Part shown: piece after piece, positions 2,861 through 62,547 of the stretch | Numbering within the stretch: position 1 is the stretch's first letter | How the letters are laid out: each line of letters opens with the position of its first letter | Assembly: GCA_032622095.1 (NCBI GenBank) | Contig: CP136062.1 | Location: forward strand, 159,894,875-159,958,874 | DNA: 64,000 bases | Direction: 5' to 3' | Source of the DNA: Siphonodentalium dalli | Lineage: Eukaryota; Mollusca; Scaphopoda; Gadilida; Siphonodentaliidae | The notes under the pieces: generated by a model | Told to the model about the DNA's origin: nothing | Seen by the model: only the letters and a program-made list of their open reading frames with translations | Databases searched by the model: none | Made by a program: the position numbers and the translations under genes

Positions 2861-3086
2861 CAAGCCTTGAAATAGGGTGTCTGTCATTTGCAGAATGAGG
2901 TCCCCAGAGGGTGAATTTAGTGATGCTACCCCGCATAGCGGGCTAGCACACCAAATTCACCTCAGCAGAATGAGGTTCCCAGAGGGTGAATTTGGTGATG
3001 CTAGCCCGCTATGCGGGGTAGCATCACTAAATTCACCCTCTGGGGACCTCATTCTGCAAATGACAGACACCCTATTTCAAGGCTTG
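2861..3086. mobile_element. Hairpin MITE family A, complete hairpin-of-hairpins copy
   Basis: Begins CAAGCCTTGAAATAGGGTGT and ends with the reverse complement. Inside are two inverted copies of a hairpin with stem GAGGTCCCCAGAGGGTGAAT and a variable GATGCTAxCCCGCATAGCGG loop, so the element is a palindrome made of palindromes. Almost identical copies lie at 40259-40512 and 48423-48676. Short reading frames across it are by-products of the symmetry. Confidence 0.85.
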
Positions 3087-33800: not shown

Positions 33801-36800
33801 GAGAAATTTGAAGAACCTTCGATCTCTGATGAAGAAGATGATGAAGAGAAATATCAGAATGGTATAACATGTTATTGGCTCTGTTTATCCACGGAACAAA
33901 TTTAAATGGCTATTGTTGCAGTTTTTGTCAAAAAATCATCGCAAAATTCACATTCTCCTATTAGAGAAGCAACGATCTACTAACTCTACTAAGTAATTTA
34001 GAATTAAAGGTACTCAATTCGATCAGACGCTCCTAAATTATTAATAACCACTTGATTTTAGAGTTATCCATCTTCATCCACATCATCGCCCGTTTGACCA
34101 CTTGCTTCTGGGCCACAAACAATAGAAATAACAAACTTCAAAAATTGATATCTGATCACTCTGAGCTTTGATGTGTGGGTTCCTCAACTTGAATAAAATA
34201 TTTTTTACCCCCGAAGCCAAAGAAATAGTAATTTAGGAGTGTCTGATCGGATTGAGTACCTTTAATTATTCTCTATACAGATAAAACTGCAAAGTAGATT
34301 CTACTTAGCAGCTTTATCTGTATAGTAGGGAATAATTAAATCTAATTATGCTGGAAATTTCTATGGAATGATGTAATTTCTAATAAAATCTTTATATTTC
34401 AAATTTAAAGCTGAACTGTACGGGTAATTTGGTTGTTTGCTCTTGAAACTTAACTCGTTTAGGAAGAAAAACGGATATATCCGTTTCCCAAAACATTATC
34501 TTCAGGACGGGAAATATATATATCCGTTTCCCCACTTCATGCACTTGTTATCAGCGAATGATTCTTTTATACTTAAATGTTTTGTGGATAGTAACATGTA
34601 TTCAATATAGGCCGATCACTCAGTCAGGCGTCCAGGAAGATGTAACCTATTTTTGGCGTCACGTGGGGGTTGCGTGCCGTGATTAGTGACGTCATTGTTC
34701 CAAAATGGCGGTGCCCAGTAGCCTAGGCCGTAGACAAGTTTTCAGTTGGCAATTACCATGGCATGTGAATCTTGACCCCTTAAGCGGAAGGAACAAGAAG
34801 CAAGGGCAATTTAAATATATTCCTGGATCCTATTTGTTTCAAAATGTCGCATGCAGACATCTCGTATAGCGAAATTACAGCCCCCCAAACGCATAATTTT
34901 CCGAAAAATCGGTTGCCATGTCAACCGGTCGCAACATTGAATAAACGCATAAATTGCTATAAAGTTATATAAAAGTAAGCATTTCTGCAAACAATCACGT
35001 CTTGAGTAATGTTTTTTCAACAGAATCACGTCCCAAACGAGTTAAAGGTACGGATAGCCTTCGTGGTGGGTATAGCTGTTGAAATAGTCACATCCGTTAA
35101 AACTGCCGTAAACAGAAAGATTAATAAAATACAGACAGATATTCTTATACCAATAATAAATATTTTGTAAATTGTTATGTAAACAAAAAGCCAAAAATGT
35201 TACAGAACCTGGCTTTTGTCTACCTAACACAGCATACAAACTTGGCATTAATATACTATTTACTTGATATTTATCATTGGTATATAAGAACAACATTACA
35301 TATGTCTATACTTTAATATTCTTTCTGTTTGCGGCAGTTATAAGGGGTGTGAATATTTTAATTTGTCTTGTATATTATGGATTCATGGTGTAACATGGAA
35401 TGTAAACTCATACAAGGGCATTTCAATCCTATTTAATATATAAGTCTCCACTATTAACTCTTCAACTAAAATAGATAATACTAATTAACATTCAAAAATT
35501 AACATAGATCACCGACCAACAAACTAGGCTCTCTCAGCCTCGCTGGTCCATAAATGAAAATAAAGTAAACATTTTTATTTTAAAGAAATGGGTAACGTTC
35601 TCTGTGGGTAATGCTGTAAAAATATGCAAATTCGTTGAAACCGTGATACTAGTATCTAGTAAGCAGAAAGAATGTTAAAATATAAAAATATTTTATGCAT
35701 ATAGTGAACTATACCAATCATAACTATTGCGTAAATAGCAGGTTATCTTCAAGATCTATGCTGTGTTATGTAACAAAACGCCATTTGCATAACACTGTGC
35801 AGATCTTATTGATAGCATGCTATCTACGTGATATTTATGATTGGTACAAGTCACTATAAAAACAAAATATGTCTACATTTTAATATTCTTTCTGTTTATG
35901 TTGGTGTTAAGTTAAAGACAAGAGGTGCCCCTGATGTGGTATGACATTCACTATGTACATTTTAAAAACTTCAAATTCGTGCGAGATCCATCTGTTTGGT
36001 TGGCGCGAAATATTCTGTCGCAATATTTCGTTAGAAAACCAAACCTCAGTATTCAAAATTTCGAATACAACAATATCGAATCAAATCGAAGCTTCACGAC
36101 GATTTTGAATCAAATCTAATACTCAAAGCTTCGCAGGCCCCCAATAGAATCTGAACAGAAGTGAACAATTAACTATAAACTATGTTAATTTGAGACTATA
36201 GATACTTCCCAGAAGATGAGGCCAAAGCAGAATGATGTCCCCAGAAGGTGAATTTGGTGATGCTAGCCTGCTGAGTGATGTCAGACCCACTATTTGCAGG
36301 CTTGATCTTGAAAAATATTTATTTGTTTCTACTATTTCTCTAACTTTAATAGCAAAGATTGTAGCAGAGGAGCATTTTGGTGGATTCCTCAAGAAAACTG
36401 ATGATGAAACGGCAGAAAGGAAGACGTGGAAGGAGAAGATGGAAGACCTTATATCAAAATCGAAAAAAGAAAAGGTACGTTTTGTTTTGTGATAATATTA
36501 ATAATAGTTTTGTTCAATGCGCTCTAAGACACTCTATACATAGACAGAACACAACGCACATCTTAATCGACAATCGTCAATCGTTTATCAAATGAGTTGC
36601 CGACGGCGCAAGGATATATTTCACGAAAGCGGGGCTTTTGTTAAATGTGACTATGTGCTATCCGCAAAGTTTGATAAAACATTCTTGATTATGATACAAA
36701 TTGTGTCGAATAAATTTGATCCATGACTGTAATGATCATTGATGCTATAACTACCTTTATTGCGATTTAAGTCTTGACAAAAAAACAGTAATTATCTGTG

Positions 36801-39800: not shown

Positions 39801-42800
39801 AGAGAATGCATTGGCACAGGGCCGTTCTGTTGGGTAAAGGGTTAACAGTCTTATAAATTACTTTGTGTATTTAAAGGTACTCAATCTGATCCGATGGTCC
39901 CCATATCATCAGATTCCAGCAACAACAACATTTTTTGAAATGCTGCTTCAGTTATCAGAATCGATTAAATTAACAACAGTCAACAATAGTATAAAACAAT
40001 AGTATAAAATTGCCCAAAAACTGTTATTTATCAACATTTTGTTCAACGAAATATTTCCGGTTTGTCAAACATCTGACACAGAAAAGCCACCTGATTTTAG
40101 AGTTATCCATCTTCATCCGCAATTTTGGTCCGAGACAGTCTTCTCGTTGACTTTTTACTAGGGCACTAAAAATTATCGGTGGTGAAAATAATGGATTTTA
40201 AAATATCATATCTGATCACTCTGAGCTTTGATGGGTGGGTTCCTCAAATCGAATCAAACAAGCCTTGAAATAGTGTGCCTGTCATTTGCAGAATGAGGTC
40301 CCCAGAGGGTGAATTTAGTGATGCTACCCCACATAGCGGGCTAGCATCACCAAATTCACCCTCTGGGAACCTCATTCTGCTGAGTTGTAAGCAGAATGAG
40401 GTCCCCAGAGGGTGAATTTGGTGATGCTAGCCCGCTATGCGGGGTAGCATCACTAAATTCACCCTCTGGGGACCTCATTCTGCAAATGACAGACACACTA
40501 TTTCAAGGCTTGTGCATCTTTAATACTTTCCTCTTATTTCAGCATAGGACAGATGATGAGAAAACAGTCACTAAGAATACAGATGATTATGATATAGCTG
40601 TGAGAGAACTCAAGTTCGAGATTAAAGGAAAGGTATGTATCAATAAGTAGAAGATTTCTAGTGTTTTTGAGTGTCGGGATTTTTTTACCCTGTGCCAATG
40701 CATTCTCTTATATATGCGAGTCGACCATAGGTCGCCTCGCATATATAAGAGAATGCATTGGCCTAACAATGTTTTATCATTTTTTTAAAATAAATGTTTC
40801 TTACAATTTTTAGGACATAAAATAAAAAACATCCATTACCCTGCAGGGAGCCGCACACATATATAGAAGCATATAGAAGAGTGTCGTCTGCTAATGTTTG
40901 TCTGGGGCTCTGTATGGGTGAAATTATAAAATTATTAAAGAATACAAGAACAAATTATTAAAATTGTATAAAATTGTTAGGCCAATGCATTCTCTTATAT
41001 ATGCGAGGCGACCTATGGTCGACTCCAGGGCCCAAGCTAGGGATTGAAAACAGGGAGAGATGAAGTCTCCCTCTGCAGATTTTAGGGAGACTTTAACCAA
41101 AACAGGGAGACTTATAAAAAAGATCAATTTTCAAAAATTACTTTATTTATAACATCAATAAATAATACTGATTAGTGCGGAATTAGTTCTCTGATGTAAC
41201 TGGACTACAACACCTTTAACACGGCCGGTCATAACACAGCCACCATCAGAACCAACACCTATGAATTTTAGCTTGTCGATGTCGTGTTTCTTGAGCGTTT
41301 CCAGAATTACATTCACAAGTACGTCGGCTGTCGCAGATCCACTGGTAAGTTCCACGTTCTCAAGAAGGCAAGTCTTAACAACACTGTTGTGGAAGTACTG
41401 AATATATATCAGCAACCGCTTCTGATTTATTCTATCTGTGCTTTCGTCCAGAATGATGCAATAGCTGTCGGCCGATCTCACTTCCGAAAGTTTTTCCTGG
41501 AGAATAACATCAGCGAGCGCGCTTTGGAATTGTTACAGGGAATCATCTGATTTGTAGGTCATGTGTTTTCCTTGAATGGTCTCGACGCCCAAAGAACTAA
41601 CCAAGTCTATGATGTGTGAAAACTCTTCCTTTGGTAGTTCCCTTTTGGCGATGTGATAAGCGGATTTGATATACGTCAGAATTTGTTGTTCGTCTTTGGT
41701 AATTTTCGCAATGATGAGTTTCTGCATTGGCATTTGTTTGGCGAGCTGGCTTTTTGTCACTGCTGTAAGATGGGTGTCCGCTAAAATGAACAATAAGGAC
41801 TAATCAAGGAGTTGTAAAGGCTAGTTTTATTTATTAAGCTTTAAATTAATGAATAGGCATGCCAACGTCGACCGTATAATCCGATTAAAGCCATAAATTG
41901 GATACAATAGAAATTAATGCGTTTAAACAAAGACCTGTAGAACTTACATATACCATATACCCGTCAGGTAATAGCTGCATTGTGTACATGCAATTAATTT
42001 ACGAAGTTAAAACGAAAACACACGTGTTACGCGCGGTATTTTAATAGAGTTTTAATTTCGTGGTAAAATCCGATAAATGTGACAAGTAGGATAGCTGTGT
42101 TACGATAGAAATTTATGTGTTCTTAACACATACCAATAGAGCTTATAATATACCCAATCAGGTTCTTTCAATACCTGCATTGTTACTAAGTGCATGCAAT
42201 GAATTTACGAAGTTAAATCGAAAACGCACGTGTTACGCGCGGTATTTTAATAGATAGAGTTATCTTTCGTAGATATAATTTTAATTTCGAGTTGAACAAA
42301 ATAAAAGAGTTATCCTTCTTCAATAATCGATACCAAACTGGTAACAATTTTGTCAGATTAGATTTGGCATTCATGGTGGATAATCGAAGTGTATACTTAC
42401 ATAAACCGTGTCGAGTGTGATTTGTAGTTTTAGCAGGAACAGCATGCCCTCGAGCGTATGCCGTTTCCAGCTTTGCAGCGCGACACACAGAACAATGCCA
42501 CTTATCATCGTCGTCTTTGACATACCATTCAAAGGCAGTCTGCACGAGTTTTTTACAATGTTTTTTACTTGGCGATTCTGATTTACATTCGGCATCGAAT
42601 TTCCGTTTAGAAGCCGGAGAACTCTTCAACCAAGATGAAAGCGCCATCTCGAATGAGAAACTGTTATGAAATGTCTATCGTGACTCGAGCATATATATGC
42701 GTGTTGGCTTACAACAACAGTTGTGAACAGATGTTGGCGGCTTTTGAAACAGTTGCCGCAAAAGGGTTGTTTTGATAGAAGTGTTAACAAACATTTGCTT

Positions 42801-51800: not shown

Positions 51801-54800
51801 GCTTCCATCCTGACAGGGTTAAGGCATTCAGCTGGCTGCGATATGTCCATTATACTGTATTCATGAACGCACCCAATAGCAGTTAAGGCCTAAGCAGAAT
51901 GAGGTTTCCAGAGGGTGAAGCTTCAAATAGTGTATCTGTTATTTGCAGAATGAGGTCCCCCAGAGGGTGAATTTAGTGATGCTATCCTGCACGGTGGGCT
52001 AGCATCACCAAATTCACCCTCTGGGAACCTCATTCTGCTTTGGCCTCAACTGCTATGGGAGACCTAGGATTATCAGATAGATGTTCCCCAGTTGAAATTG
52101 GTGATATTTACCCATTAGTCACCTCGATTATGCAATATAGTTTCTGCAAATTTAGGGGATATAGAAACTGAACAGAAGGGAAAAGTAACTAAAACCAATG
52201 TTTGTTAATTTGAGGCTTTTGATACTTCCCAAAAGATGTATGAGGCATAAGCAGAGGGTGAATTTGGTGATGTTCATACATTAGTCACCTCGGTTGTGCA
52301 TTATATCTTCTGCAAATTAAGGGCTATAGAAACTTCCCAGAAGGGAAAAAGTAACTAAAAACAATGTTAATTTTATACTACTTCCCTGAAGATGAGGCCT
52401 AAGCATAATGAGGACCCCAGAGTGTGAATTTGGTGATGTCCGCCCATTGTGTGGGATAGCATCACTAAATTCACCCTCTGGGGGGCCTCATCCTGCAAAT
52501 GACAGACACACTATTTGCAGGCTTGATTGTGACCAGCTTACTGAAATTATTTCTATTTTGTAAACAGGACAAAAAGAAAATGATAGAAAAAGCTAAAGCA
52601 GAGATTCCATATACGTTCAAAGGTAAATATAGCTAAATAAAGCTAAAGCTGAGATTCCATATGCGTTCAAAGGTAAATATAGCTATATAAAGCTAAAGCA
52701 GAGTTTCCATATGCGTTCAAAGGTAAATATAGCTATATAAAGCTAAAGCAGAGATTCCATATGCGTTCAAAGGTAAATATAGCTATATAAAGCTAAAGCA
52801 GAGATTCCATATACGTTCAAAGGTAAATATAGCTATATAAAGCTAAAGCAGAGATTCCATATACGTTCAAAGGTAAATATAGCTAAATAAAGCTAAAGCT
52901 GAGATTCCATATGCGTTCAAAGGTAAATATAGCTAAAGCAGAGATTCCATATACGTTCAAAGGTAAATATAGCTAAATAAAGCTAAAGCAGAGATTCCAT
53001 ATACGTTCAAAGGTAAATATAGCTATATAAAGCTAAAGCAGAGATTCCATATGCGTTCAAAGGTAAATATAGCTAAATAAAGCTAAAGCAGAGATTCCAT
53101 ATACGTTCAAAGGTAAATATAGCTAAATAAAGCTAAAGCTGAGATTCCATATACGTTCAAAGGTAAATATAGCTAAATAAAGCTAAAGCAGAGATTCCAT
53201 ATACGTTCAAAGGTAAATATAGCTAAATAAAGCTAAAGCTGAGATTCCATATACGTTCAAAGGTAAATATAGCTAAATAAAGCTAAAGCAGAGATTCCAT
53301 ATACGTTCAAAGGTAAATATAGCTAAATAAAGCTAAAGCAGAGATTCCATATGCGTTCAAAGGTAAATATAGCTAAATAAAGCTAAAGCAGAGATTCCAT
53401 ATACGTTCAAAGGTAAATATAGCTAAATAAAGCTAAAGCTGAGATTCCATATACGTTCAAAGGTAAATATAGCTAAATAAAGCTAAAGCAGAGATTCCAT
53501 ATACGTTCAAAGGTAAATATAGCTAAATAAAGCTAAAGCAGAGATTCCATATACGTTCAAAGGTAAATATAGCTAAATAAAGCTAAAGCTGAGATTCCAT
53601 ATACGTTCAAAGGTAAATATAGCTAAATAAAGCTAAAGCAGAGATTCCATATACGTTCAAAGGTAAATATAGCTAAATAAAGCTAAAGCTGAGATTCCAT
53701 ATACGTTCAAAGGTAAATATAGCTAAATAAAGCTAAAGCTGAGATTCCATATACGTTCAAAGGTAAATATAGCTAAATAAAGCTAAAGCAGAGATTCCAT
53801 ATGCGTTCAAAGGTAAATATAGCTAAAGCAGAGATTCCATATGCGTTCAAAGGTAAATATAGCTAAATAAAGCTAAAGCAGAGATTACATATACGTTCAA
53901 AGGTAAATATAGCTAAAGCAGAGATTCAATATACGTTCAAAGGTAAATATAGCTAAATAAAGCTAAAGCAGAGATTACATATACGTTCAAAGGTAAATAT
54001 AGCTAAAGCAGAGATTCCATATGCGTTCAAAGGTAAATATAGCTATATAAAGCTAAAGCTGAGATTCCATATACTTTCAAAGGTAAATATAGCTAAATAA
54101 AGCTAAAGCTGAGATTCCATATACGTTCAAAGGTAAATATAGCTAAATAAAGCTAAAGCAGAGATTCCATATACGTTCAAAGGTAAATATAGCTAAATAA
54201 AGCTAAAGCTGAGATTCCATATACGTTCAAAGGTAAATATAGCTAAATAAAGCTAAAGCAGAGATTCCATATACGTTCAAAGGTAAATATAGCTAAATAA
54301 AGCTAAAGCTGAGATTCCATATACGTTCAAAGGTAAATATAGCTAAATAAAGCTAAAGCTGAGATTCCATATACGTTCAAAGGTAAATATAGCTAAATAA
54401 AGCTAAAGCAGAGATTCCATATGCGTTCAAAGGTAAATATAGCTAAATAAAGCTAAAGCAGAGATTCCATATACGTTCAAAGGTAAATATAGCTAAATAA
54501 AGCTAAAGCTGAGATTCCATATACGTTCAAAGGTAAATATAGCTAAATAAAGCTAAAGCAGAGATTCCATATACGTAAATAAAGGTAAATAAAGCTAAAT
54601 ATAGCTAAAGCAGAGATTCCATTTATGTTCAAAGGTAAATAAAGCTAAAGCAGAGATTCCATATACGTTCAAAGGTAAATATAGCTAAATAAAGCTAAAG
54701 CAGAGATTCCATATACGTTCAAAGGTAAATATAGCTATATAAAGCTAAAGCAGAGATTCCATATACGTTCAAAGGTAAATATAGCTAAATAAAGCTAAAG

Positions 54801-57800
54801 CAGAGATTCCATATACGTTCAAAGGTAAATATAGCTAAATAAAGCTAAAGCAGAGATTCCATATACGTTCAAAGGTAAATATAGCTAAATAAAGCTAAAG
54901 CAGAGATTCCATATACGTTCAAAGGTAAATAAAGCTAAATATAGCTAAAGCAGAGATTCCATTTATGTTCAAAGGTAAATAAAGCTAAAGCAGAGATTCC
55001 ATATACGTTCAAAGGTAAATATAGCTAAATAAAGCTAAAGCAGAGATTCCATATACGTTCAAAGGTAAATATAGCTATATAAAGCTAAAGCAGAGATTCC
55101 ATATACGTTCAAAGGTAAATATAGCTAAATAAAGCTAAAGCAGAGATTCCATATACGTTCAAAGGTAAATATAGCTAAATAAAGCTAAAGCAGAGATTCC
55201 ATATACGTTCAAAGGTAAATATAGCTAAATAAAGCTAAAGCTGAGATTCCATATACGTTCAAAGGTAAATATAGCTAAATAAAGCTAAAGCTGAGATTCC
55301 ATATACGTTCAAAGGTAAATATAGCTAAATAAAGCTAAAGCAGAGATTCCATATACGTTCAAAGGTAAATATAGCTAAATAAAGCTAAAGCTGAGATTCC
55401 ATATACGTTCAAAGGTAAATATAGCTAAATAAAGCTAAAGCAGAGATTCCATATACGTTCAAAGGTAAATATAGCTAAATAAAGCTAAAGCTGAGATTCC
55501 ATATACGTTCAAAGGTAAATATAGCTAAATAAAGCTAAAGCTGAGATTCCATATACGTTCAAAGGTAAATATAGCTAAATAAAGCTAAAGCAGAGATTCC
55601 ATATGCGTTCAAAGGTAAATATAGCTAAATAAAGCTAAAGCAGAGATTCCATATACGTTCAAATGTAAATATAGCTATATAAAGCTAAAGCTGAGATTCC
55701 ATATGCGTTCAAAGGTAAATATAGCTATATAAAGCTAAAGCAGAGATTCCATATACATTCAAAGGTAAATATAGCTAAATAAAGCTAAAGCTGAGATTCC
55801 ATATACGTTCAAAGGTAAATATAGCTAAATAAAGCTAAAGCAGAGATTCCATATACGTTCAAAGGTAAATATAGCTAAATAAAGCTAAAGCTGAGATTCC
55901 ATATACGTTCAAAGGTAAATATAGCTAAATAAAGCTAAAGCAGAGATTCCATATGCGTTCAAAGGTAAATATAGCTATATAAAGCTAAAGCAGAGATTCC
56001 ATATACATTCAAAGGTAAATATAGCTAAATAAAGCTAAAGCTGAGATTCCATATACGTTCAAAGGTAAATATAGCTAAATAAAGCTAAAGCAGAGATTCC
56101 ATATATGTTCAAAGGTAAATATAGCTAAATAAAGCTAAAGCTGAGATTCCATATACGTTCAAAGGTAAATATAGCTAAATAAAGCTAAAGCAGAGATTCC
56201 ATATGCGTTCAAAGGTAAATATAGCTAAATAAAGCTAAAGCAGAGATTCCATATACGTTCAAAGGTAAATATAGCTAAATAAAGCTAAAGCAGAGATTCC
56301 ATATACGTTCAAAGGTAAATATAGCTAAATAAAGCTAAAGCAGAGATTCCATATGCGTTCAAAGGTAAATATAGCTAAATAAAGCTAAAGCAGAGATTCC
56401 ATATACGTTCAAAGGTAAATATAGCTAAATAAAGCTAAAGCAGAGATTCCATATACGTTCAAAGGTAAATAAAGCTAAATATAGCTAAAGCAGAGATTCC
56501 ATTTATGTTCAAAGGTAAATAAAGCTAAAGCAGAGATTCCATATACGTTCAAAGGTAAATATAGCTAAATAAAGCTAAAGCAGAGATTCCATATACGTTC
56601 AAAGGTAAATATAGCTAAATAAAGCTAAAGCAGAGATTCCATATACGTTCAAAGGTAAATATAGCTATATAAAGCTAAAGCAGAGATTCCATATACGTTC
56701 AAAGGTAAATATAGCTATATAAAGCTAAAGCAGAGATTCCATATACGTTCAAAGGTAAATATAGCTAAATAAAGCTAAAGCAGAGATTCCATATACGTTC
56801 AAAGGTAAATATAGCTAAATAAAGCTAAAGCAGAGATTCCATATACGTTCAAAGGTAAATATAGCTAAATAAAGCTAAAGCAGAGATTCCATATACGTTC
56901 AAAGGTAAATATAGCTAAATAAAGCTAAAGCAGAGATTCCATATACGTTCAAAGGTAAATATAGCTAAATAAAGCTAAAGCAGAGATTCCATATACGTTC
57001 AAAGGTAAATATAGCTATATAAAGCTAAAGCAGAGATTCCATATGCGTTCAAAGGTAAATATAGCTAAATAAAGCTAAAGCAGAGATTCCATATACGTTC
57101 AAAGGTAAATATAGCTAAATAAAGCTAAAGCAGAGATTCCATATACGTTCAAAGGTAAATATAGCTAAATAAAGCTAAAGCAGAGATTCCATATGCGTTC
57201 AAAGGTAAATATAGCTAAATAAAGCTAAAGCAGAGATTCCATATACGTTCAAAGGTAAATATAGCTAAATAAAGCTAAAGCTGAGATTCCATATACGTTC
57301 AAAGGTAAATATAGCTAAATAAAGCTAAAGCAGAGATTCCATATGCGTTCAAAGGTAAATATAGCTATATAAAGCTAAAGCAGAGATTCCATATACGTTC
57401 AAAGGTAAATATAGCTAAATAAAGCTAAAGCAGAGATTCCATATGCGTTCAAAGGTAAATAAAGCTAAAGCAGAGATTCCATATACGTTCAAAGGTAAAT
57501 ATAGCTAAATAAAGCTAAATCAGAGATTCCATATGCGTTCAAAGGTAAATATAGCTAAATAAAGCTAAAGCAGAGATTCCATATACGTTCAAAGGTAAAT
57601 ATAGCTAAATAAAGCTAAAGCTGAGATTCCATATACGTTCAAAGGTAAATATAGCTAAATAAAGCGAAATCAGAGATTCCATATGCGTTCAAAGGTAAAT
57701 ATAGCTAAATAAAGCTAAAGCAGAGATTCCATATGCGTTCAAAGGTAAATATAGCTAAATAAAGCTAAAGCAGAGATTCCATATACGTTCAAAGGTAAAT

Positions 57801-60800
57801 ATAGCTAAATAAAGCTAAATCAGAGATTCCATATGCGTTCAAAGGTAAATATAGCTAAATAAAGCTAAAGCAGAGATTCCATATACGTTCAAAGGTAAAT
57901 ATAGCTAAATAAAGCTAAAGCAGAGATTCCATATACGTTCAAAGGTAAATATAGCTAAATAAAGCTAAAGCAGAGATTCCATATACGTTCAAAGGTAAAT
58001 ATAGCTAAATAAAGCTAAAGCTGAGATTCCATATACGTTCAAAGGTAAATATAGCTAAATAAAGCTAAAGCTGAGATTCCATATACGTTCAAAGGTAAAT
58101 ATAGCTAAATAAAGCGAAATCAGAGATTACATATACGTTCAAAGGTAAATATAGCTAAATAAAGCTAAAGCTGAGATTCCATATACGTTCAAAGGTAAAT
58201 ATAGCTAAATAAAGCTAAAGCAGAGATTCCATATACGTTCAAAGGTAAATATAGCTAAATAAAGCTAAAGCTGAGATTCCATATACGTTCAAAGGTAAAT
58301 ATAGCTAAATAAAGCGAAATCAGAGATTACATATACGTTCAAAGGTAAATATAGCTATATAAAGCTAAAGCAGAGATTCCATATACGTTCAGACATGCGT
58401 TTCAGAAGTTAAAACATGGATGGAGATCAACAAACTCAAACTTAACGAAAGCAAAACTGAAATTATGCTTTGTGGAACTAACGCTCGGTTGAAGGGGGTC
58501 AGTCTTAATGCCACGCTCATCGGCGACAGTGTAATTGAATTTTCTGATGTTATTAAAAACCTCGGTGTGACCATCGACAAAAACTTCTCAATGTCATCTC
58601 ACATCAGCAACCTATGCAGGTCCTTATATATGGAGCTCCGGCGCATTTCGCATGTACGTCCATATATCTCCGAACAATCCACACAAATATTGATGTCCTC
58701 ATTTGTGTTATCCAAAATCGATTACTGTAATTCTATTTTAGCAGGACTCCCAGATTATCAACTTCACAAACTTCAAAAAATTGTTAATATTGCTGCAAAA
58801 ATTGTGTGCCGTGCAGGCAAATTTGATCATGTTACCCCACTGTTGTATAAATTACATTGGCTTCCCATATTTGAACGAATTGTGTACAAACATGCTACTT
58901 TGTGTTATAGAAAGTCGGATATTGATAATGCTTTGCCACCATATATTGATACATTGTTGGTCAAATATGTACCTGCTCGACCACTTCGATCACAGGATGC
59001 GAATGCAATGGTTGTACCTAAACGAGATCTGATGTACTTTGGTCGCCGTTCTTTCGAGGTCTACGGGCCGACCATTTGGAACAACCTTCCCAAAGAGGTG
59101 AAACAGTCTGACTGTTTGGAAACATTCAAATCGGCCCTAAAAACTCACCTATTCATCTCCCATTTCGGACAAATAACATCAGAAAACGTTGAGGAGACTT
59201 AATTATTGAAATACATGCATATTATTTATTGCGTATATGTTATAGTGTGAATGTGTGTGACTGCGTTTGTGTGAATTGTTCAGCGCCATGAGCCATACGG
59301 GATATGGCGCTATACAAATACTCTATATTATTATTATTATTAAAGGTAAATATAGCTAAATAAAGCGAAATCAGAGATTCCATATGCGTTCAAAGGTAAA
59401 TATAGCTAAAGCAGAGATTCCATTTATGTTCAAAGGTAAATATAGCTAAAGCAGAGATTCCATATACGTTCAAAGGTAAATATAGCTAAAGCTGATTTAT
59501 TTATGGTTTATATATGCTATTCCATTTTATCACATAATTTGGCCATAAAAGCAGTTTCATAATTATCGGTAATAGACACGTTTAATATCAGCGCGTGCGA
59601 TGACGTCACGGCGTTCTTCAAATAACTTGCGATCGCTGTAGTTTATGATTGTTGTTTTCGATGAATATTTCGCGTTGCTTCGGGTTTATTTGATCATGTG
59701 ATAAAAGGTATCTCACACTCGTCCTATTTTATACGTAATTTATCAACCTCGTCCTCTAAATTCTATTTGAGCCTCGGTAAACCTCGGCTCAAATCGAATT
59801 TAGTGAACTCGGTTGATAAATTCCGTATAAAATAGAAACTCATGTGAGATCCTCTATGTGTCTAATTGTTCGCATCGATAATATCTCTCTTCACATGTTA
59901 TGGTTATAAATTAATAAACTTAAGAACCACAAGTAATTTTCTTAAGTGATTGAGATGCTCATGAAATATCACAATATTTTTAGCACTAAATAATTATGAT
60001 GAACTTTTAACCATTTTATACACGATGTATTCTGTTATTGGTCTGTCCTTCTGTCCGTCCATCCGTTCGCTTTTTTCGTTTCCAGTTGATAACTTTTGCA
60101 AGTCTGAACTGAATGGAAATGAAATTTGGTATGTGAGTTCAAGTTCAAATTTGGGTTCCGCCTGCCAAGTTTCACCAGAGTTATGTGCCCTTTTAGTTGG
60201 AATTTGCACTCAATTTTCATTCCCGGTGATAACTTTATTGAGACTAAACTGAATGAAATCAAATTTGGTATGTGAGTTTATTAGCCTAAAATGCAGGTCA
60301 AGTACGAATTTGGGTTTCACCCAAAAATTGTCAACAGCTATTGTCCTTTGTTGGAATTACCACAGGCGTATTTTGTCACAATTGATTGTCTTGTTCATGT
60401 TATTTTTAGCACCAGATAATTATGATGAACCATTTTTCATGTTATTTTTAGCACCAGATAATTACGATGAACTTTTGATGTTACTTCATGGTCACACCAA
60501 TGAAGAACAAACTCTGATAATCGAGAGAATACGAAAATGCCATCATGTTAGTCTTTCCGAGGGAAATAAACAGAAATTACAGGTAATTATTAACCCATTT
60601 ATTTTAACCCTCAATAGATTCTTCCATTGAGTTATAAGAGTATACATTGGAACGGTTTACTATGCCCCCATTGAAGGTTCGGGCATATAGCTGAGGGTTC
60701 GGACCATATGTCTGTCCGTCCGTTTGATCATATCACCTTGTAACTCTGGTGTTAATTATCGGATTTCATTGTCCTTCGGCATGGTGATAGCACAGGATGT

Positions 60801-62349
60801 GAATAAAGGATACCATCATACTACGAGTGTCGTCCATAAATTTTTGCCAGAGTTACTGCCCTTGTTTAAGACTTTGGGGGAGATTTGTGAGATTTGTGTC
60901 CGAAAGAACATTTTGGCTTGTAACTTGGCCAAGGATCATCAGATTTAATTTATGGCCCTTGTTTGACTTGTGAATTTTGTCTTTTGATATTTTTGAAAAT
61001 TTCAGTTTGTAATTCAGGCATGGGTAATCAGATATGGTTGTACTTTGACATGATAATAACCCAGCATGAGTTAAAGGATACACACATACTATGGGTTTTG
61101 TCCATCCATTTTTACCAGAGTTACAGCATAGGGGAATCTCTTAATTTTTTTGTTTCCTTATGAAATTTTCAGCTTGTAACTTAGACATGTATCATCGAAT
61201 TTGGTTGTGCGTTGGTGTGTTGGTAGCCCAGTTTAGGGGGAAAGGATGCCCACTTCTTAGATAAGAAAATGAAAAAATTTCATCTACACCAGCTGTCCAT
61301 ACAAATATTTAGTTGCTATTGCCAAAAGTAACAAAGTCTATTTAATATTACAATTAATGATCAATAATTAATTTTCCATTTGAAGCCACACCATCATACC
61401 CCAAAGACCCAACCACCCCCATGAATCTTTTCCTGACACACACTCTGACTCACAACTGAGACCGTTTATGACATCAACACTGTAACTTTTTGACGTTCCT
61501 TATTCTATATCATTCTATTCATTGCTCAGTAAGAATTTAACTCCGTCCCAAGTTGAGCTACATTTTTTTTTCACTGATGCTACAGTGATTATTATTTTCT
61601 ACTTGACTGATGCTATGTAGCTGGATTATTTTACTGGTGATGGCAAGGATCATCAGATTTAATTTACGGCCCTTGTTTGACTTTTGAATTTTGTCTTTTT
61701 TTGATGTTGAACATTTCAGTTTGTAAATCGGGCATGGATCATCAGATATGGTTGTACTTTGGTATGATAATAACCCAGCATGCGGTTTTGTCCATTCATT
61801 TTTACCAGAGTTACAGCCCTTGTTTGACTAGGGGAATTTCTGAATTTTGTTTCCTTATGAAATTTTCAGCTGGTAACTTGGGCATGTATCATAAAATTTG
61901 GTTGTAACTTTTTGACCTTCCTTATTCTTTATCATTCTATTCATTACTCAGCAAATAATTAACTCCTTCCCAAGTTGAACTACAGTGTCATTGACACTTT
62001 CATTTTTTTTTCGCTGATGCTATAGTAATTATTTTTTGTACTTGACTGATACTATGTAGCTAGAGTATTTTACTGGTGATGTCAATTTGCCTGTCGCTTT
62101 AATTAGTTTTTTTTTACTTGACAGACTTTGTTTTGCCTGACACTACAGTATTTCACTGACCTCGGGATCCAGGAGCCTCCAGAGCTGAACCTCATGGATA
62201 AGTTAACGCCGCATCTGTATGCGCTGACTCAGCAGTTTCCAGGGCCGGCGACGTTAGCAATACTTGACCAGATATCAGACAGGCAGGCAGAGTTCAAACA
62301 AATCTGTGATCGAAAAGCAGGCCGTGGTCTGTATCCAGGTCTAGATACT
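21660..62349 (+). CDS. NOP14: NOP14 nucleolar protein, coding exons 1-13 (3' end outside window)
   Basis: NOP14 is a core protein of the small-subunit processome needed for 18S rRNA processing and 40S assembly in the nucleolus. Thirteen exons join in phase to 564 codons: 21660-21845, 31106-31240, 33723-33861, 36353-36474, 38357-38452, 40543-40632, 44339-44407, 47384-47475, 47870-48006, 51270-51484, 52568-52622, 60452-60582, 62125-62349. Family landmarks in order: NPFEVKVNRQKHDVLGRK, TLLKEYKNRFKSN, YNLAEEEELTHYGQSLADIE, EEHFGGFL, ELTEKLDEEW, HKSAEDLNDG-FALDK, an acidic stretch, PYTFK-APDNYDEL, ERIRKCHHVSLSEGNK, and a DKLTPHLYALTQQFPGPAT block. The human protein is about 857 residues, so roughly 290 C-terminal residues are missing to the right. 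All introns are GT-AG. Introns are long (up to 9.3 kb) and full of transposons, and several exon edges are tandemly duplicated (see separate entries). No frameshift in the reconstructed frame. Confidence 0.93.
25159..25521 (-). other. Reading frame on left palindrome arm, 120 codons
   Basis: I do not recognise the product. The frame reads outward from the palindrome centre and contains HYHDKCPQTSTVRIVIICLN followed by LFDETIA. A similar peptide is encoded on the right arm. The likeness may be only that of inverted DNA arms, because the frames diverge after the FDET motif. Probably not a functional gene. Confidence 0.25.
25711..26106 (+). other. Reading frame on right palindrome arm, 131 codons
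   Basis: Mirror partner of the left-arm frame, with HYHGVCPQTNTVSIVLLCRE followed by LFDETTA. It also reads outward from the centre. Unrecognised; possibly the remnant of a protein once encoded by the foldback element. Confidence 0.25.
28469..28588. mobile_element. Hairpin MITE family A, single hairpin
   Basis: GCAGAATGGGGTCCCCAGAG paired with CTGGGGACCTCATTCTGC, then CACACTAAACTCAGGCTTGA. Only the right end is preserved. Confidence 0.75.
29397..29484 (+). repeat. 44-bp tandem duplication
   Basis: Two nearly identical copies of a unit containing TCCACCCTGTATGGTCC and TTATTTGGGTCTGTTTG. They lie inside a 145-codon frame with no ATG start, which I do not regard as a gene. Confidence 0.8.
29611..29972. 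mobile_element. TTAA-type MITE with two internal family B hairpins
   Basis: The ends are TTAACCCTTTACCCAACA and its complement, with TTAA on both sides and CCC termini as in piggyBac-type elements. Inside are two complete family B hairpins (29637-29710 and 29759-29834), then a unique arm with GGAGCCGGTTCCAATGATAT. The copy at 39456-39845 is the same element in opposite orientation. Confidence 0.85.
30043..30567. mobile_element. Composite of family A hairpins
   Basis: Three hairpins in series (about 30050-30135, 30145-30240, 30455-30535) with the T-rich core between the second and third. The right end is CACATTATAATCCAGACATG. This appears to be a copy inserted in, or recombined with, another. 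Confidence 0.7.
31106..31240 (+). CDS. NOP14: NOP14 exon 2
   Basis: 45 codons, KETLLKEYKNRFKSN to MVKRFAAEKQ. Acceptor TTTTTCACTTCCAG, donor CAG|GTACGT. Phase 0 at both ends. Confidence 0.92.
31312..31528. mobile_element. Tc1/mariner-like palindromic MITE
   Basis: 217-bp foldback, ends TACAGTTGTGCCC and GCGCATTACTGTA, arms with CACAGCAGAATTATGGGTAA. Same family as 7648-7832. Confidence 0.8.
31910..33405. repeat. Triplicated intron 2 segment (direct, inverse, direct)
   Basis: The block GTGAACTGGTCACTAACATA ... GACTTGGACTACTTGGTCAA ... poly-G ... AACACACCATACAGTGAAA occurs at 31938-32200 and 33126-33400. A partial inverse copy (GGTCAATAGTCCAAGTCTGC) lies at 32741-32850. In the first copy it runs straight into exon 3-derived sequence. 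In the second, about 215 bp of other repeat (33405-33620) intervene before the same exon 3-like sequence. Confidence 0.75.
32219..32290 (+). pseudogene. Chimeric fragments of NOP14 exon 3
   Basis: 32219-32264 repeats the degenerate copy of the exon 3 acceptor region (TATGAGCAATGAAGCTTGTA, also at 33642). It is followed without gap at 32267-32288 by 22 bp that are the exact reverse complement of exon 3 at 33766-33787 (GACTGTCCATAATGTGTCAG...). Two pieces of one exon are thus joined head to head, about 1.4 kb upstream of the real exon. Confidence 0.8.
33629..33754 (+). repeat. Tandem duplication of exon 3 acceptor, 42-bp period
   Basis: TCTTTTTTAG followed by AAATCTGAGCGAGGGAGCTT occurs twice, with acceptor AG at 33679-33680 and at 33721-33722, exactly 42 bp apart. 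A decayed third copy starts at about 33633. The upstream acceptor would put the second copy's TTT-TAG in frame as a stop codon, so only the downstream acceptor yields NOP14. Confidence 0.9.
33723..33861 (+). CDS. NOP14: NOP14 exon 3
   Basis: 46 codons plus 1 base: KSERGSLYNLAEEEELTHYG to EEKYQN. Acceptor CATCTTTTTTAG, the second of a tandem pair. Donor AATG|GTATAA, phase 1. Confidence 0.92.
34014..34265. mobile_element. TTAA-flanked MITE (AGGTACTCAAT ends)
   Basis: The ends are TTAAAGGTACTCAATTCGAT and ATCGGATTGAGTACCTTTAA. A relative, truncated on the right, lies at 39871-40258; both contain GATTTTAGAGTTATCCATCT. Confidence 0.8.
35100..35340. repeat. Foldback repeat
   Basis: AAACAGAAAGATTAATAAA on the left pairs with TTTAATATTCTTTCTGTTT on the right; inner arms around ACCAATAATAAATAT also pair. 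A related palindrome is at 35664-35900. Confidence 0.65.
35664..35900. repeat. Foldback repeat, second copy
   Basis: AGCAGAAAGAATGTTAAAAT pairs with CATTTTAATATTCTTTCTGT; inner arms ACCAATCATAACTATTGCG and its inverse. Same family as 35100-35340. Confidence 0.65.
36186..36306. mobile_element. Family A MITE remnant upstream of NOP14 exon 4
   Basis: Contains CAGAATGATGTCCCCAGAAG, GGTGATGCTAGCCTGCTGAG and the right end CACTATTTGCAGGCTTGA. It ends about 46 bp before the exon 4 acceptor AG. Confidence 0.7.
36353..36474 (+). CDS. NOP14: NOP14 exon 4
   Basis: 2 bases plus 40 codons, KIVAEEHFGGFLKKTDDE to SKSKKEK. Acceptor CTAACTTTAATAG, donor AAG|GTACGT. An inverse copy lies at about 45400-45560. 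Confidence 0.9.
37337..37530. mobile_element. Family B relative with TTAA start
   Basis: Starts TTAACCCTTCCATGACACG. Has a short hairpin (CATTCTCTTATATAAGAGAA) and a second long hairpin (about 37446-37520). Followed by the TTTCGCAAAATTTCAGGAAG block, as at 9938. Confidence 0.7.
37640..37742 (-). mobile_element. tRNA-derived SINE head
   Basis: On the minus strand: TGGCTAGTCCAGTGGTTAGA (A box) and, about 40 bp on, TGAGTTCAATGCCCA (B box-like). It is not a tRNA gene: the arms do not pair as a cloverleaf. Confidence 0.55.
37803..38213. mobile_element. Hairpin MITE family A copy
   Basis: Two diverged hairpins (about 37808-37898 and 38092-38190) and the right end AATAAACTCAGACTTGA, 143 bp before the exon 5 acceptor. 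Confidence 0.7.
38357..38452 (+). CDS. NOP14: NOP14 exon 5
   Basis: 32 codons, YERQAEKEKAVELTEKLDEE to LMGKIG. Acceptor ACCTTTTACAG, donor GGG|GTACGT. Phase 0 at both ends. Confidence 0.9.
38598..39010 (+). repeat. Dispersed GTCTGTCCG / GAGTTATTGCC tandem-unit repeat
   Basis: Two ~200-bp units, each with ACATTTTCTGGTAATTTTTT or a variant, AACTTGGCACA, GTTCAGTCGGACT and TTATTGCCATTTTTCGACA. The same family occurs at 45748-46617, 50440-51250, 60040-60330 and 60700-62080. I recognise the style from marine invertebrate genomes but cannot assign a transposon class. Confidence 0.6.
39456..39845. mobile_element. TTAA-type MITE with two family B hairpins (inverse copy)
   Basis: TTAACCCTTTACCCAACA ends, TTAA at both flanks, unique arm first (ACCGGCCAAAAACGGCC) and two hairpins (39607-39677, 39748-39820). 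Reverse-complement homologue of 29611-29972. Confidence 0.85.
39871..40258. mobile_element. TTAA MITE relative, right end replaced
   Basis: Starts TTAAAGGTACTCAATCTGAT; shares GATTTTAGAGTTATCCATCT and GATCACTCTGAGCTTTGATG with 34014-34265. The right end stops where the family A MITE begins, which suggests insertion or deletion at that point. Confidence 0.65.
40259..40512. mobile_element. Hairpin MITE family A, hairpin-of-hairpins
   Basis: CAAGCCTTGAAATAGTGTGC to ACACTATTTCAAGGCTTG, two inverted complete hairpins around TGCTGAGTTGTAAGCA. Ends 30 bp before the exon 6 acceptor AG. Close copy of 2861-3086 and 48423-48676, so it probably moved recently. Confidence 0.85.
40543..40632 (+). CDS. NOP14: NOP14 exon 6
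   Basis: 30 codons, HRTDDEKTVTKNTDDYDIAV to FEIKGK. Acceptor CTCTTATTTCAG, donor AAG|GTATGT. Phase 0. Confidence 0.88.
41026..43239 (-). mobile_element. hAT transposon with intact ends and 8-bp target duplication
   Basis: 2214 bp. The ends are CAGGGCCCAAGCTAGGG and CCCTAGCGTGGGCCCTG. The 8-bp target GTCGACTC is duplicated at 41018-41025 and 43240-43247, the hallmark of hAT. The insertion cut a family B hairpin loop. The transposase gene on the minus strand is broken and truncated (see next entry), so the copy is not autonomous. Confidence 0.92.
41155..42647 (-). pseudogene. hAT transposase (DUF4371-like), two exons, broken
   Basis: Exon 1 (42647-42401) begins MALSSWLKSSPASKRKFDAE and holds WYVKDDDDKWHCSVCRAAK, an N-terminal zinc-finger-like region as in ZMYM/ZNF862-related hAT proteins. 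The donor is T|GTAAGTATAC. The intron acceptor TTTTAG leads to exon 2 from 41780 (DTHLTAVTKSQLAKQMPMQK), and the phases fit (1 plus 2). The frame meets one in-frame TAA at 41533-41535 after YKSDDSL and then continues in the same frame with LADVILQEKLSEV, SADSYCIILDESTD (the first catalytic Asp region of hAT) and FIGVGSDGGCVMTGRVKGVV (second catalytic region). It stops at 41155 without the C-terminal catalytic Glu and dimerisation domain. Stop codon plus C-terminal deletion mean it is inactive. Confidence 0.82.
43278..44338 (+). other. Rest of NOP14 intron 6
   Basis: Remnant of the outer element to 43414, a foldback at 43504-44040, then plain AT-rich sequence to the exon 7 acceptor. Confidence 0.6.
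43504..44040. mobile_element. Foldback element, 537 bp
   Basis: The arms pair, e.g. GATCATATTCCACTTGTACA (left) with its complement (right), and AGGGAACCTTATAAAGTCG with CGACTGTATAAGGTTCCCT. The ends are CAACTGGTCTGGATCATGCC and GGCATGATATACAGCTGGTCC-like sequence. Confidence 0.75.
44339..44407 (+). CDS. NOP14: NOP14 exon 7
   Basis: 23 codons, ATDRLKTDEEIAKDEKERLD to KLE. Acceptor CTCTTTTCCAG, donor GAG|GTAAGT. Phase 0. Confidence 0.9.
45372..45600 (-). pseudogene. Inverse copy of NOP14 exon 4 between MITE ends
   Basis: On the minus strand the sequence reads intron 3 tail (CTTGAAAAATATTT, CTCTAACTTTAATAG), then exon 4 (IVAEEHFGGFLKKTDDVTTE ... ENLISKSKKEK), with only a few substitutions. 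It stops at the exon's last codon. The flanks on both sides are family A ends: AAGCCTCAAAAAACGGTGCT with ACATTTGCAG at 45374-45408, and TTTGCAGACTTGA (inverse) near 45575-45590. The acceptor is kept and the donor is replaced by MITE sequence. It lies 9 kb downstream of exon 4, antisense in intron 7, so it cannot be spliced in sense. Confidence 0.85.
45594..46930. mobile_element. Family B composite, interrupted copy
   Basis: Outer repeat GTGACCCACCATATCAAATC at the left and its complement at the right, as at 21175-21633. The left hairpin is damaged and preceded by repeated TTACCCTCTC. The core is interrupted at 45748-46617. The right hairpin (46812-46887) is intact. Confidence 0.75.
45748..46617. 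mobile_element. 870-bp insertion of GTCTGTCCG-type repeat
   Basis: Sits precisely in the family B core: the left flank TTTATCATTTTT and right flank AAAATAAATGTTTCTTAC are contiguous in the intact copy at 40780-40810. Begins ATACGCCCGTTTGAAAAAAC (5' hairpin with GGCCGTAT) and ends with GCACGCCCAGCGTAGCTCTT. Inside are about five ~125-190-bp units with GTTGTCCGGATGATAACTTT and GAGTTATGCCCCTTATTTGA. Class unknown; no TIR and no protein. Confidence 0.7.
46930..47337. mobile_element. Hairpin MITE family A copy upstream of exon 8
   Basis: Hairpins at about 46955-47043 and 47245-47312, T-rich core between; the right end CATATTTTCAGGCCTGG lies about 46 bp before the exon 8 acceptor. Confidence 0.75.
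47384..47475 (+). CDS. NOP14: NOP14 exon 8
   Basis: 30 codons plus 2 bases, ADRMRRMKGITEEDENIQKS to SAEDLNDG. Acceptor ATATTATAAACAG, donor GG|GTAATA. Phase 2. Confidence 0.9.
47870..48006 (+). CDS. NOP14: NOP14 exon 9
   Basis: 1 base plus 45 codons plus 1 base: FALDKSVRFHLAYKDGKILE to GGSDEDQTN. Acceptor CATATCCTTTCAAG, donor AATG|GTATTA. The join NDG-FALDK fits the family. A decayed copy lies at about 49960-50060. Confidence 0.9.
48423..48676. mobile_element. Hairpin MITE family A, hairpin-of-hairpins
   Basis: CAAGCCTTGAAATAGTGTGT to its complement; two inverted hairpins. Very close to 40259-40512. Confidence 0.85.
49167..49493. mobile_element. TIR MITE with GGCCAAA...ACCTGTGTTTAG ends
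   Basis: Left TAAGGCC then AATACCTGTGTTTAGGG; right CTCTAAACACAGGTATT then GGCCTAA. CCCTACCTACCCTA blocks sit inside both ends. Related pieces occur at 31840-31905 and 32340-32406. Confidence 0.75.
49818..49921. repeat. Hairpin
   Basis: ACAACTCGTCCCCAGTTTAT pairs with ATAAACCGGGGACGAGTTGT, loop about 40 bp. Confidence 0.7.
49960..50062 (+). pseudogene. Decayed copy of NOP14 exon 9 3' end
   Basis: Matches exon 9 from the GAGGAGCCGGAAGAAATGGA block through the donor region: here GGAGCAACCGGAGAGAATGG, TAAAGATGCTGATTGTG and AACCCAATCAGATGGTCC, then ATTAAAAATAT like the start of intron 9. The donor GT is disrupted (GGTCC) and a frameshift is present. It is about 2 kb downstream of the real exon, in the same orientation. 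Confidence 0.75.
50440..51250 (+). repeat. GTCTGTCCG-type dispersed repeat, several units
   Basis: Starts near GTCTGTCTGTCTGTCCGGAG, then three ~180-bp units each with TTTCTGGATGATATCTCAAG or a variant, TTTGATCC and TTATGGACTTATTTTGACTT. Confidence 0.6.
51270..51484 (+). CDS. NOP14: NOP14 exon 10 (acidic)
   Basis: 2 bases plus 71 codons: GDESDEAEVQEADGSGDDDD, acidic to DSFADIGSEPEDADSDAQ, then basic SEKRKKSSL. Corresponds to the acidic linker of NOP14. Acceptor TACTTTCATAAG, donor TTA|GTGAGT. Phase 0. Confidence 0.85.
51577..51822. mobile_element. TTAA family B element, complete
   Basis: TTAACCTTTCCATGACTGAAG to CATCCTGACAGGGTTAA, TTAA on both sides, two hairpins (51619-51693 and 51717-51775), the second lacking part of one arm. 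Confidence 0.75.
51885..52527. mobile_element. Composite of family A MITEs
   Basis: Several nested pieces: TTAAGGCCTAAGCAGAATGA, a complete hairpin (51944-52038), the core twice (AGGGGATATAGAAACTGAAC and a variant), and a last hairpin (52408-52497) with right end CACTATTTGCAGGCTTGA. Confidence 0.7.
52568..52622 (+). CDS. NOP14: NOP14 exon 11 (mini-exon)
   Basis: 18 codons plus 1 base: DKKKMIEKAKAEIPYTFK. Acceptor ATTTTGTAAACAG, donor AAAG|GTAAAT. The AEIPYTF block is the family's conserved LPYTF motif. The last 34 bases and the donor are the founder of the 50-bp array that follows. Confidence 0.92.
52589..58388 (+). repeat. 50-bp minisatellite made of NOP14 exon 11 end + splice donor
   Basis: About 115 tandem units. 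One unit is AGCTAAAGCAGAGATTCC + ATATACGTTCAAAG (exon 11 end) + GTAAATATAGCTAAATAA (donor and intron start). The first unit is the real exon-intron border. Some units are 40 bp because one AGCTAAATAA block is missing, which reveals a ~10-bp substructure. Diagnostic variants are CAG/CTG before AGATTCC, ATAC/ATGC before GTTC, and AAATAA/ATATAA. Nearly every unit keeps AAAG|GTAAAT. Unit length 50 is not a multiple of 3, and the intron part carries in-frame TAA. Confidence 0.97.
58389..59342 (+). mobile_element. 5'-truncated CR1/L2-like LINE inserted in the array
   Basis: Starts inside the reverse transcriptase (VSEVKTWMEINKLKLNESKT) and continues to a stop at 59200-59202. The 3' tail contains GGATATGGCGCTATACAAAT followed by (ATT)n, typical of the CR1/L2 group. 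The array breaks at CGTTCA and resumes at AAAGGTAAAT, so the insertion left at most a 1-bp target duplication. Confidence 0.88.
58390..59202 (+). pseudogene. LINE reverse transcriptase, C-terminal part
   Basis: Open for about 270 codons: NLGVTIDKNFSMSSHISNLC, SFVLSKIDYCNSILAGLPDY, LHWLPIFERIVYKHATLCYR and RRSFEVYGPTIWNNLPKEVK are the standard thumb and C-terminal motifs of CR1/L2-group non-LTR elements. The catalytic FADD box and endonuclease are missing, so it is a dead fragment. The open frame suggests recent insertion. Confidence 0.88.
59343..59494 (+). repeat. Remaining 50-bp/40-bp array units after the LINE
   Basis: About three to four units, with the ATTTATGTTC variant and short 40-bp spacing, ending at AGCTAAAGCTGATTTATT. 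Confidence 0.9.
59495..60396 (+). other. NOP14 intron 11, right part
   Basis: A hairpin (59710-59850, TATTTTATACGTAATTTATC and its inverse), AT-rich spacer, then GTCTGTCCG-type repeat units (60040-60330). Confidence 0.55.
60392..60475 (+). repeat. Tandem duplication of exon 12 acceptor, 42-bp period
   Basis: CATGTTATTTTTAG followed by CACCAGATAATTATGATGAA occurs twice, with acceptor AGs at 60408-60409 and 60450-60451, exactly 42 bp apart. Both keep the frame: the upstream acceptor would add 14 residues (APDNYDEPFFMLFL). Confidence 0.92.
60452..60582 (+). CDS. NOP14: NOP14 exon 12
   Basis: 2 bases plus 43 codons, APDNYDELLMLLHGHTNEEQ to SEGNKQKLQ. Donor CAG|GTAATT. The alternative acceptor 42 bp upstream is also in frame; the shorter form fits family length. 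Contains ERIRKCHHVSLSEGNK, strongly conserved in NOP14. Confidence 0.92.
60583..62124 (+). other. NOP14 intron 12
   Basis: Mostly GTCTGTCCG-type repeat units. A block with GATCATCAGATTTAATTTA and CAGATATGGTTGTACTTTG occurs at about 60930-61050 and 61648-61770. A second block with CTTGACTGATGCTATGTAGC occurs at about 61525-61645 and 61948-62085. These are local direct duplications. Confidence 0.6.
62125..62349 (+). CDS. NOP14: NOP14 exon 13
   Basis: 75 codons: TLFCLTLQYFTDLGIQEPPE to KAGRGLYPGLDT. Acceptor TTTTTTTTACTTGACAG. An AG at 62147-62148 would drop the first 8 codons in frame, but those residues align with the family's KLFGFLLEY segment, so I chose the upstream site. Donor ACT|GTGAGT, phase 0. 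The next exon is not found before 64000. Confidence 0.88.
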
Positions 62350-62419
62350 GTGAGTGTGTGATAGTTAAAGCAGGCCACTGTCTGTATCCATGTCTAGATA
62401 CTGTGAGTGTGTGATAGTA
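62314..62419 (+). repeat. Tandem duplication of exon 13 donor, 53-bp period
   Basis: AAAGCAGGCCGTGGTCTGTA ... GTCTAGATACTGTGAGTGTG is repeated 53 bp on (second GTGAGT at 62403) with a few changes. Use of the second donor would cross the in-frame TGA of GTG-AGT-GTG-TGA. Confidence 0.9.
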
Positions 62420-62547
62420 AAAGCCATCTGGCTTTTTAAGCCTCAAATTATATGTATTATTGTTGCATTCTGGCAATCAAATTAGGTCAATAAATGGATG
62501 AAATACATTTGCGTCTGAAAGACATATTGTCATTGGACAAGTCAGAT

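Follow-up and report, generated by a model that had tools for sequence, protein, structure and literature searches.

A tandem array of copied 5' splice sites at exon 11 of NOP14, a probable very large mirage minisatellite

The NOP14 gene in the 64,000-nucleotide stretch of DNA analysed here (the window) raises the question of how an exon border followed by more than 100 near-identical copies of its own 5' splice site could arise and be tolerated. With a probability of roughly 80%, the array is a very large 'mirage' minisatellite that was seeded by a duplication spanning the border of exon 11 and intron 11, is near-neutral, and is tolerated via exon definition. The window is part of contig C2 in a genome of 2.23 Gb and nine contigs, and NOP14 runs on the forward strand from window position 21660 to approximately 18 kb past the window end.

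The gene and the array

Nineteen NOP14 exons were placed from Pfam matches, open frames, and splice phases. Exons 1 to 14, joined via the first exon 11 donor, encode 590 amino acids without a stop and match Pfam Nop14 with E=1e-165 over profile positions 4-591, bearing out the proposal in the preliminary description that the first copy of the array is the true donor. The joined model loses its reading frame after exon 15, probably because at least one exon between exons 15 and 16 was missed, and the gene is accordingly described as intact for exons 1 to 14 only. A search of the genome with PF04147 (E<=10) returned 14 matches, all on C2 inside the NOP14 gene, and NOP14 seems to be single-copy; the one minus-strand match among them (E=0.25) probably arose by chance.

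Exon 11 (52568-52622, + strand; 55 nt, DKKKMIEKAKAEIPYTFK) was placed by its open frame and the phases of exons 1 to 14. The array starts within it, with the final 34 nt of the exon forming the initial, exonic portion. The junction of exon 11 and exon 12, IPYTFK-APDNYDELL, aligns with IPYTFPCPQSHEEML of the NOP14 chain 5oql_B, which we take to be fungal. At intron 11, the genuine 5' splice site reads AAAG|GTAAATATA (52623-52631, + strand; donor at 52623) and ranks third in strength among 18 NOP14 donors on a gene-internal position weight matrix. The flanking introns measure 1,083 nt (intron 10) and 7,829 nt (intron 11).

The repeat unit of 50 bp consists of 34 bp of exon and 16 bp of intron, and the array spans 6.9 kb including a 0.95-kb insertion. 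Tandem Repeats Finder (TRF) places the main array at 52589-58391 (+ strand) with a period of 50, 117.6 copies, and 94% matches, and nearly all units read AAAG|GTAAAT. Within 52568-59510 there are 120 occurrences of AAAGGTAAAT, counting the real donor, and 122 of GTAAAT, 113 of which read AAG|GTAAATATA. Successive array donors are separated by 50 bp (108 times), 40 bp (10 times), 42, 10, and 1001 bp; since the last distance bridges the insertion, no skipped donor is evident. The commonest exonic part of the units (53 of 122) is identical to the final 34 nt of real exon 11. The array of copied exon 11 donors is thereby confirmed as first described, whereas its end at 58388 is not: past the insertion (58392-59343, + strand), the array resumes at 59344 and continues to approximately 59492 (+ strand) with mostly 40-bp units, as judged from TRF and donor spacing. 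The insertion is 0.95 kb long with an (ATT)n end, resembles a long interspersed nuclear element by eye, and has a 277-amino-acid open frame that yielded no Pfam match.

The repeat was found only at this locus. A 33-mer of the unit core, searched with up to three mismatches, has 119 forward and no reverse matches in the 2.2-Gb genome, and the window alone contains 119 (52601-59454), so at this threshold the core does not occur outside the array. A 201-bp query across the exon-array edge gave 95 rows with 40 of 46 candidates scored, 57 of them in the array; in the other 38, which lie outside it, only query bases 1-49 match, and these belong to an upstream dispersed repeat.

Across the 108 units of 50 bp, whose boundaries are set at GTAAAT by definition, just 13 of the 50 positions vary, and variants are shared by blocks of units, with one four-site variant occurring three times and being followed each time by a 40-bp unit. 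This block-wise sharing is typical of minisatellite turnover. The lack of skipped GTAAAT sites was considered as a sign of selection on the donor motif and discarded, because with so few variable sites and units cut at GTAAAT the test has no power. That the units are not identical, but show variants in order, 40-bp forms, and blocks that have been duplicated, also speaks against the copy number being an artefact of assembly and the true array being much shorter or longer. Long tandem arrays are difficult to assemble, and the assembly contains pairs of almost identical gene segments, separated by tens of kb, that may be unmerged haplotypes; however, the insertion anchors the far side of the array, and border duplications of this kind also occur at other genes, making an artefact very unlikely.

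The sequence around exon 11 suggests a route by which the unit may have formed. The 7-mer AGCTAAA occurs in exon 11 and again 40 bp downstream in the intron, and the 50-bp unit contains it twice, 10 bp apart. A short tandem duplication across the exon 11/intron 11 border would have started the array, with a 40-bp founder unit arising from the AGCTAAA copies 40 bp apart, and an extra 10-bp repeat (AAAGCTAAAT/AAAGCTAAAG) would have turned this into the 50-bp unit. From there, approximately 121 copies could have been produced by slippage or unequal exchange, and the insertion would have landed inside the array later.

Splice-site choice among near-equal donors

The first donor and the later ones would differ in their consequences for the protein. 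Translation from six later donors showed that each reaches an in-frame TAA at 52634-52636 (+ strand), and because every later donor includes that stretch, any donor after the first leads to this stop, as had been stated, with a 449-amino-acid product. Such transcripts are expected to be targets of nonsense-mediated decay (NMD), and skipping of exon 11 leads to a stop as well. Donors at least as strong as that of exon 11 number 120 in the array (17.4/kb, the real one counted) versus 6 and 5 (approximately 0.2/kb) in two further stretches of NOP14. Since the later donors share the sequence of the first, strength is unable to choose among them. Masking of later donors by RNA structure was considered and rejected: unpaired probabilities are alike for the first 13 donors, at 0.05-0.16. 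The array constitutes a natural experiment in spliceosome choice among more than 100 near-equal donors.

Exon definition, which had been put forward as one way for the first donor to win, is the likely reason for its use. Given the length of the introns on either side, recognition of exon 11 is probably of this type, and exon definition would pick the donor nearest the upstream acceptor, namely the first copy. If the first copy is chosen, the array would behave as a near-neutral intron, splicing would be barely disturbed, and leftover use of later donors would yield NMD substrates. Elsewhere in the genome, smaller mirages at exon borders would be retained through the same tolerance. A close experimental parallel comes from Carranza et al. 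(2022; PMC9225289), in which pairs of identical donors spaced 52 nt apart were tested under exon definition and splicing took place exclusively at the upstream donor in five minigenes. By analogy, this geometry is nearly that of the array and would predict use of the first donor.

Several points weigh against tolerance through exon definition or against a near-neutral origin, some of which come from the border counts of the next section. In the same study (PMC9225289), the minigenes were transfected and had two competing sites, whereas there are 120 here; upstream preference among near-equal sites in human transcripts is just approximately 60%, and approximately 60% of events favour the downstream site once the strength filter is removed; classical intron-centric experiments favour the donor closest to the 3' splice site; and with duplicated 3' sites exon definition merely lowers upstream preference. 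The effect of exon definition is thus weaker for acceptors, which makes the duplicated acceptor of exon 12, described below, the likelier site of a real isoform: exon 12 could carry an extra 14 amino acids.

The sequence AGGT in nearly every unit (120 AAAGGTAAAT) and the publication of a tandem array of dual-specific sites in polyubiquitin UBC (PMC10809524) raise the alternative of recursive splicing, also advanced in the preliminary description, in which each AG|GT would serve as acceptor and donor and the array would be removed stepwise. As acceptors, the 122 array sites score a mean of -3.0 on a gene-internal matrix trained on 18 real NOP14 acceptors, the weakest of which scores 5.7, and only one array site, located at 59346 next to the insertion's (ATT)n end, scores higher; in a leave-one-out analysis the real acceptors range from -1.1 to 18.1, and six of the 122 array sites lie above -1.1. 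These computed scores disfavour stepwise removal. In contrast to UBC units, the 50-bp unit also carries a stop and has a length that is not divisible by 3, and recursive splicing is considered exceedingly improbable.

A further alternative is that the array is a regulator, in which leaky later donors, intronic polyadenylation, or both yield non-productive NOP14 RNA and U1 small nuclear ribonucleoprotein at the array donors shifts the balance. The convergence of all later donors on one stop and the density of strong donors are consistent with this. AATAAA, which begins at intron position +14 in the common unit, occurs 99 times in the array region (approximately 121 units) versus 68 times in 51.8 kb of the remaining gene, and the common unit thereby couples a strong donor with AATAAA, the kind of pairing in which U1 is known to block premature polyadenylation. 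However, both elements are set by one 50-bp unit and their counts follow copy number, so the counts are no independent sign of selection; moreover, by eye the unit has no GU-rich stretch after AATAAA, and the unit consensus of a second array at exon 18 has, as read, no AATAAA. The pairing represents a natural array of U1 sites next to poly(A) signals but may mean nothing, and a regulatory role is unlikely. The more specific proposal that such an array sets NOP14 output, with its length tuning the split between productive first-donor splicing and intronic polyadenylation or NMD, such that ribosome assembly varies among individuals with array length, is judged quite unlikely.

Duplicated borders within and beyond NOP14

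Exon 11 is one of five repeated borders among the 36 of NOP14, which comprise the donors of exons 11, 13, and 18 and the acceptors of exons 3 and 12; those other than exon 11 had escaped the preliminary description. The exon 18 donor array lies past the window at C2:159975127-159976327 (L002 6327-7527), spans approximately 1.2 kb, and contains 23 donors including the real one, in units of mostly 53 and some 40 bp. Among its 23 GTAAG[T/C]G sites, one is CAACAGGTAAGT and 21 are CAACAAGTAAGT; the real site reads CAACAG|GTAAGT and 21 copies CAACAA|GTAAGT, and the real donor had the top score of the six that were scored.

The remaining duplications are small. At exon 3 (33723-33861, + strand; open frame, splice phases), the 3' splice site is duplicated in 2.7 copies of 42 bp (33639-33752, + strand), and the upstream AG leads to an in-frame stop. 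At exon 13 (62149-62349, + strand; open frame, alignment with NOP14), 2.3 copies of 53 bp (62305-62424, + strand) provide a second donor that also leads to an in-frame stop. The 3' splice site of intron 11 and the start of exon 12 (60452-60582, + strand; Pfam match, open frame) are present in two copies of 42 bp (60397-60480, + strand), with an upstream AG at 60408-60409 and the real AG at 60450-60451; use of the former keeps the frame and adds the 14 amino acids mentioned above. Together with the donor array, this acceptor means that each end of intron 11 carries a duplication. An old, diverged copy of the same border, TTTTTAG|CACTAAATAATTATGATGAACTTTT, was found by eye at 59975-60010 (+ strand), approximately 0.45 kb upstream of the exon 12 duplication.

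NOP14 also contains repeats that are unrelated to borders, namely the tandem arrays of intron 14 (L001 691-3351), with periods of approximately 128-163 bp and multiples thereof. A dispersed repeat with GAGGTCCCCAGAGGGTGAATTTAGTGATGCTA-like arms in tandem pairs, which by eye resembles a miniature inverted-repeat transposable element, is present at window positions 2890-3037, 30052-30241, and 40288-40483 and at L002 1474-1669.

A first self-similarity scan of NOP14 used 40-bp windows, lags of 25-200, and a threshold of 30/40, and found repeats at 5 of 36 borders versus 16.7% of intronic positions, i.e. no excess. At lags of 25-65, 5 of 36 borders compare with 379 of 47,686 intronic positions (0.8%); this lag class was picked after the NOP14 data had been viewed, the test itself had been prompted by NOP14, and its control excluded border-touching arrays and 60 bp around exons. 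The same lag, window, and threshold were applied to CCT, kinesin, and proteasome loci (30 of 53, 30 of 123, and 20 of 20 matches taken, respectively), where a border was defined as the zone of ±20 at the ends of hidden Markov model matches and control positions may include unannotated exons. Two CCT rows with very long matches (L003, L004), six near-identical CCT copies, and a whole-length proteasome match (L064) were dropped. As the CCT repeat lists had been viewed before CCT was scored, only kinesin and proteasome were scored blind.

At 24/30, repeats with periods of 25-65 bp were present at 4 of 44 CCT borders versus 849 of 56,462 intronic positions (4 of 56 borders with all 28 loci kept), at 1 of 60 kinesin borders versus 3,899 of 77,388 intronic positions (5.0%), and at 1 of 38 proteasome borders versus 1,841 of 48,775 intronic positions (2 of 38 borders at 22/30). 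Relative to background, the border rate is therefore higher in CCT but lower in the kinesin and proteasome genes, and the pooled figures outside NOP14 are 6 of 142 borders (4.2%) versus 6,589 of 182,625 intronic positions (3.6%). A general enrichment of tandem repeats at borders was accordingly rejected. On this sample, tandem duplication is concluded to be frequent in the genome and blind to borders, and without an excess outside NOP14 no border-specific process is needed. Nevertheless, the NOP14 rate of 5 of 36, in a repeat class chosen post hoc, is above that of the other genes and is poorly predicted by blind duplication; together with the lag 25-200 result and the kinesin borders, it belongs among the points against a near-neutral mirage noted above. 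Mirages may be no more than the border-crossing share of ordinary minisatellites, arising without a special mechanism.

The individual cases outside NOP14 were read by eye. At a CCT donor (L027 1570-2049), there are 11 copies of a main unit of 39 bp, five of which lack the GT (ATAAG or GCTAAG); two further CCT donors have two copies (L023) and a second copy without GT (L030), and a CCT acceptor (L009) has two copies. A kinesin donor (L062) has three copies. A proteasome subunit on the minus strand (L083 1137-1558) has a 58-bp unit with seven donors, VTMG|GTAAG; minus-strand loci are in contig orientation, hence the label 'acc' for this locus denotes a donor. In the near-identical CCT pair L005/L006, a 61-bp tandem copy, off the border, is present in L005 and absent from L006, suggesting that tandem duplication is still ongoing. 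Several CCT segments occur in two copies, tens to approximately 170 kb apart (L005/L006, L013/L014, L016/L017, L018/L019, L025/L026, and L029/L032), with best aligned blocks 96-99% identical, and are either recent segmental duplications or unmerged haplotypes.

Comparison with known border-spanning repeats

The preliminary description held that an expanded exon-intron border of this size in a ribosome-assembly gene had, to its author's knowledge, not been described, but lancelet mirage minisatellites are a published example of this kind, and a non-exhaustive literature search found border-spanning arrays only in lancelet genes, plus a duplication in potato. The lancelet mirages (Adh3, the globins BflGb6 and BflGb9, TnC, and PGBD5) are tandem repeats that span 5' and 3' borders, with many copies bearing AG/GT signals and the real exon copy intact, and they reportedly leave splicing undisturbed (PMC3087553, PMC3902484), in line with a near-neutral array in NOP14. 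The NOP14 repeats are alike in that the unit spans the border, both 5' and 3' borders are affected, and the units contain AG/GT signals. They differ in size, as the exon 11 array has approximately 121 copies and another exon bears 23 donors, versus 6 and 3 units in the two BflGb6 haplotypes compared, and in affecting five borders of one gene. Exon definition may explain the tolerance of mirages in general by ignoring copies on the intron side.

The NOP14 genome also differs in its probable origin. A match to the bantam microRNA scored 50.2 bits, less than the curated 61, and its mature sequence, TGAGATCATTACGAAAACTGATT, can be read; the bantam family is presumably protostome-specific, so the genome is probably that of a protostome and probably not of a lancelet. 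The mollusc haemocyanin domain PF14830 had no match in the genome, which does not equal absence.

Other systems share single features with the array. The hexanucleotide expansion of an intron of NOP56, the cause of SCA36 (spinocerebellar ataxia 36), likewise enlarges a repeat within an intron of a ribosome-assembly gene, but is a disease expansion whose unit has no splice signals. Polyubiquitin UBC has AGGT in every unit of a transcribed tandem array, but its units are coding, in frame, and serve as 5' and 3' sites (PMC10809524), whereas NOP14 units have stops and poor 3' signals, with one of 122 computed above the weakest real acceptor. In potato RdRp, an intron was gained through tandem duplication over an intron-exon border (PMC4974935), a border-crossing duplication that, as in NOP14, provides new splice sites; NOP14, however, shows no sign of a new coding exon or intron, and the copies lie inside an existing intron. 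Border duplication is a proposed path to new introns. What is new here relative to these systems is the size of the array, the second array of 23 donors on exon 18, the three smaller border duplications of NOP14, and the CCT, kinesin, and proteasome cases, which extend border-spanning repeats to a genome that is probably protostome and to a size far larger than in the published examples considered here.

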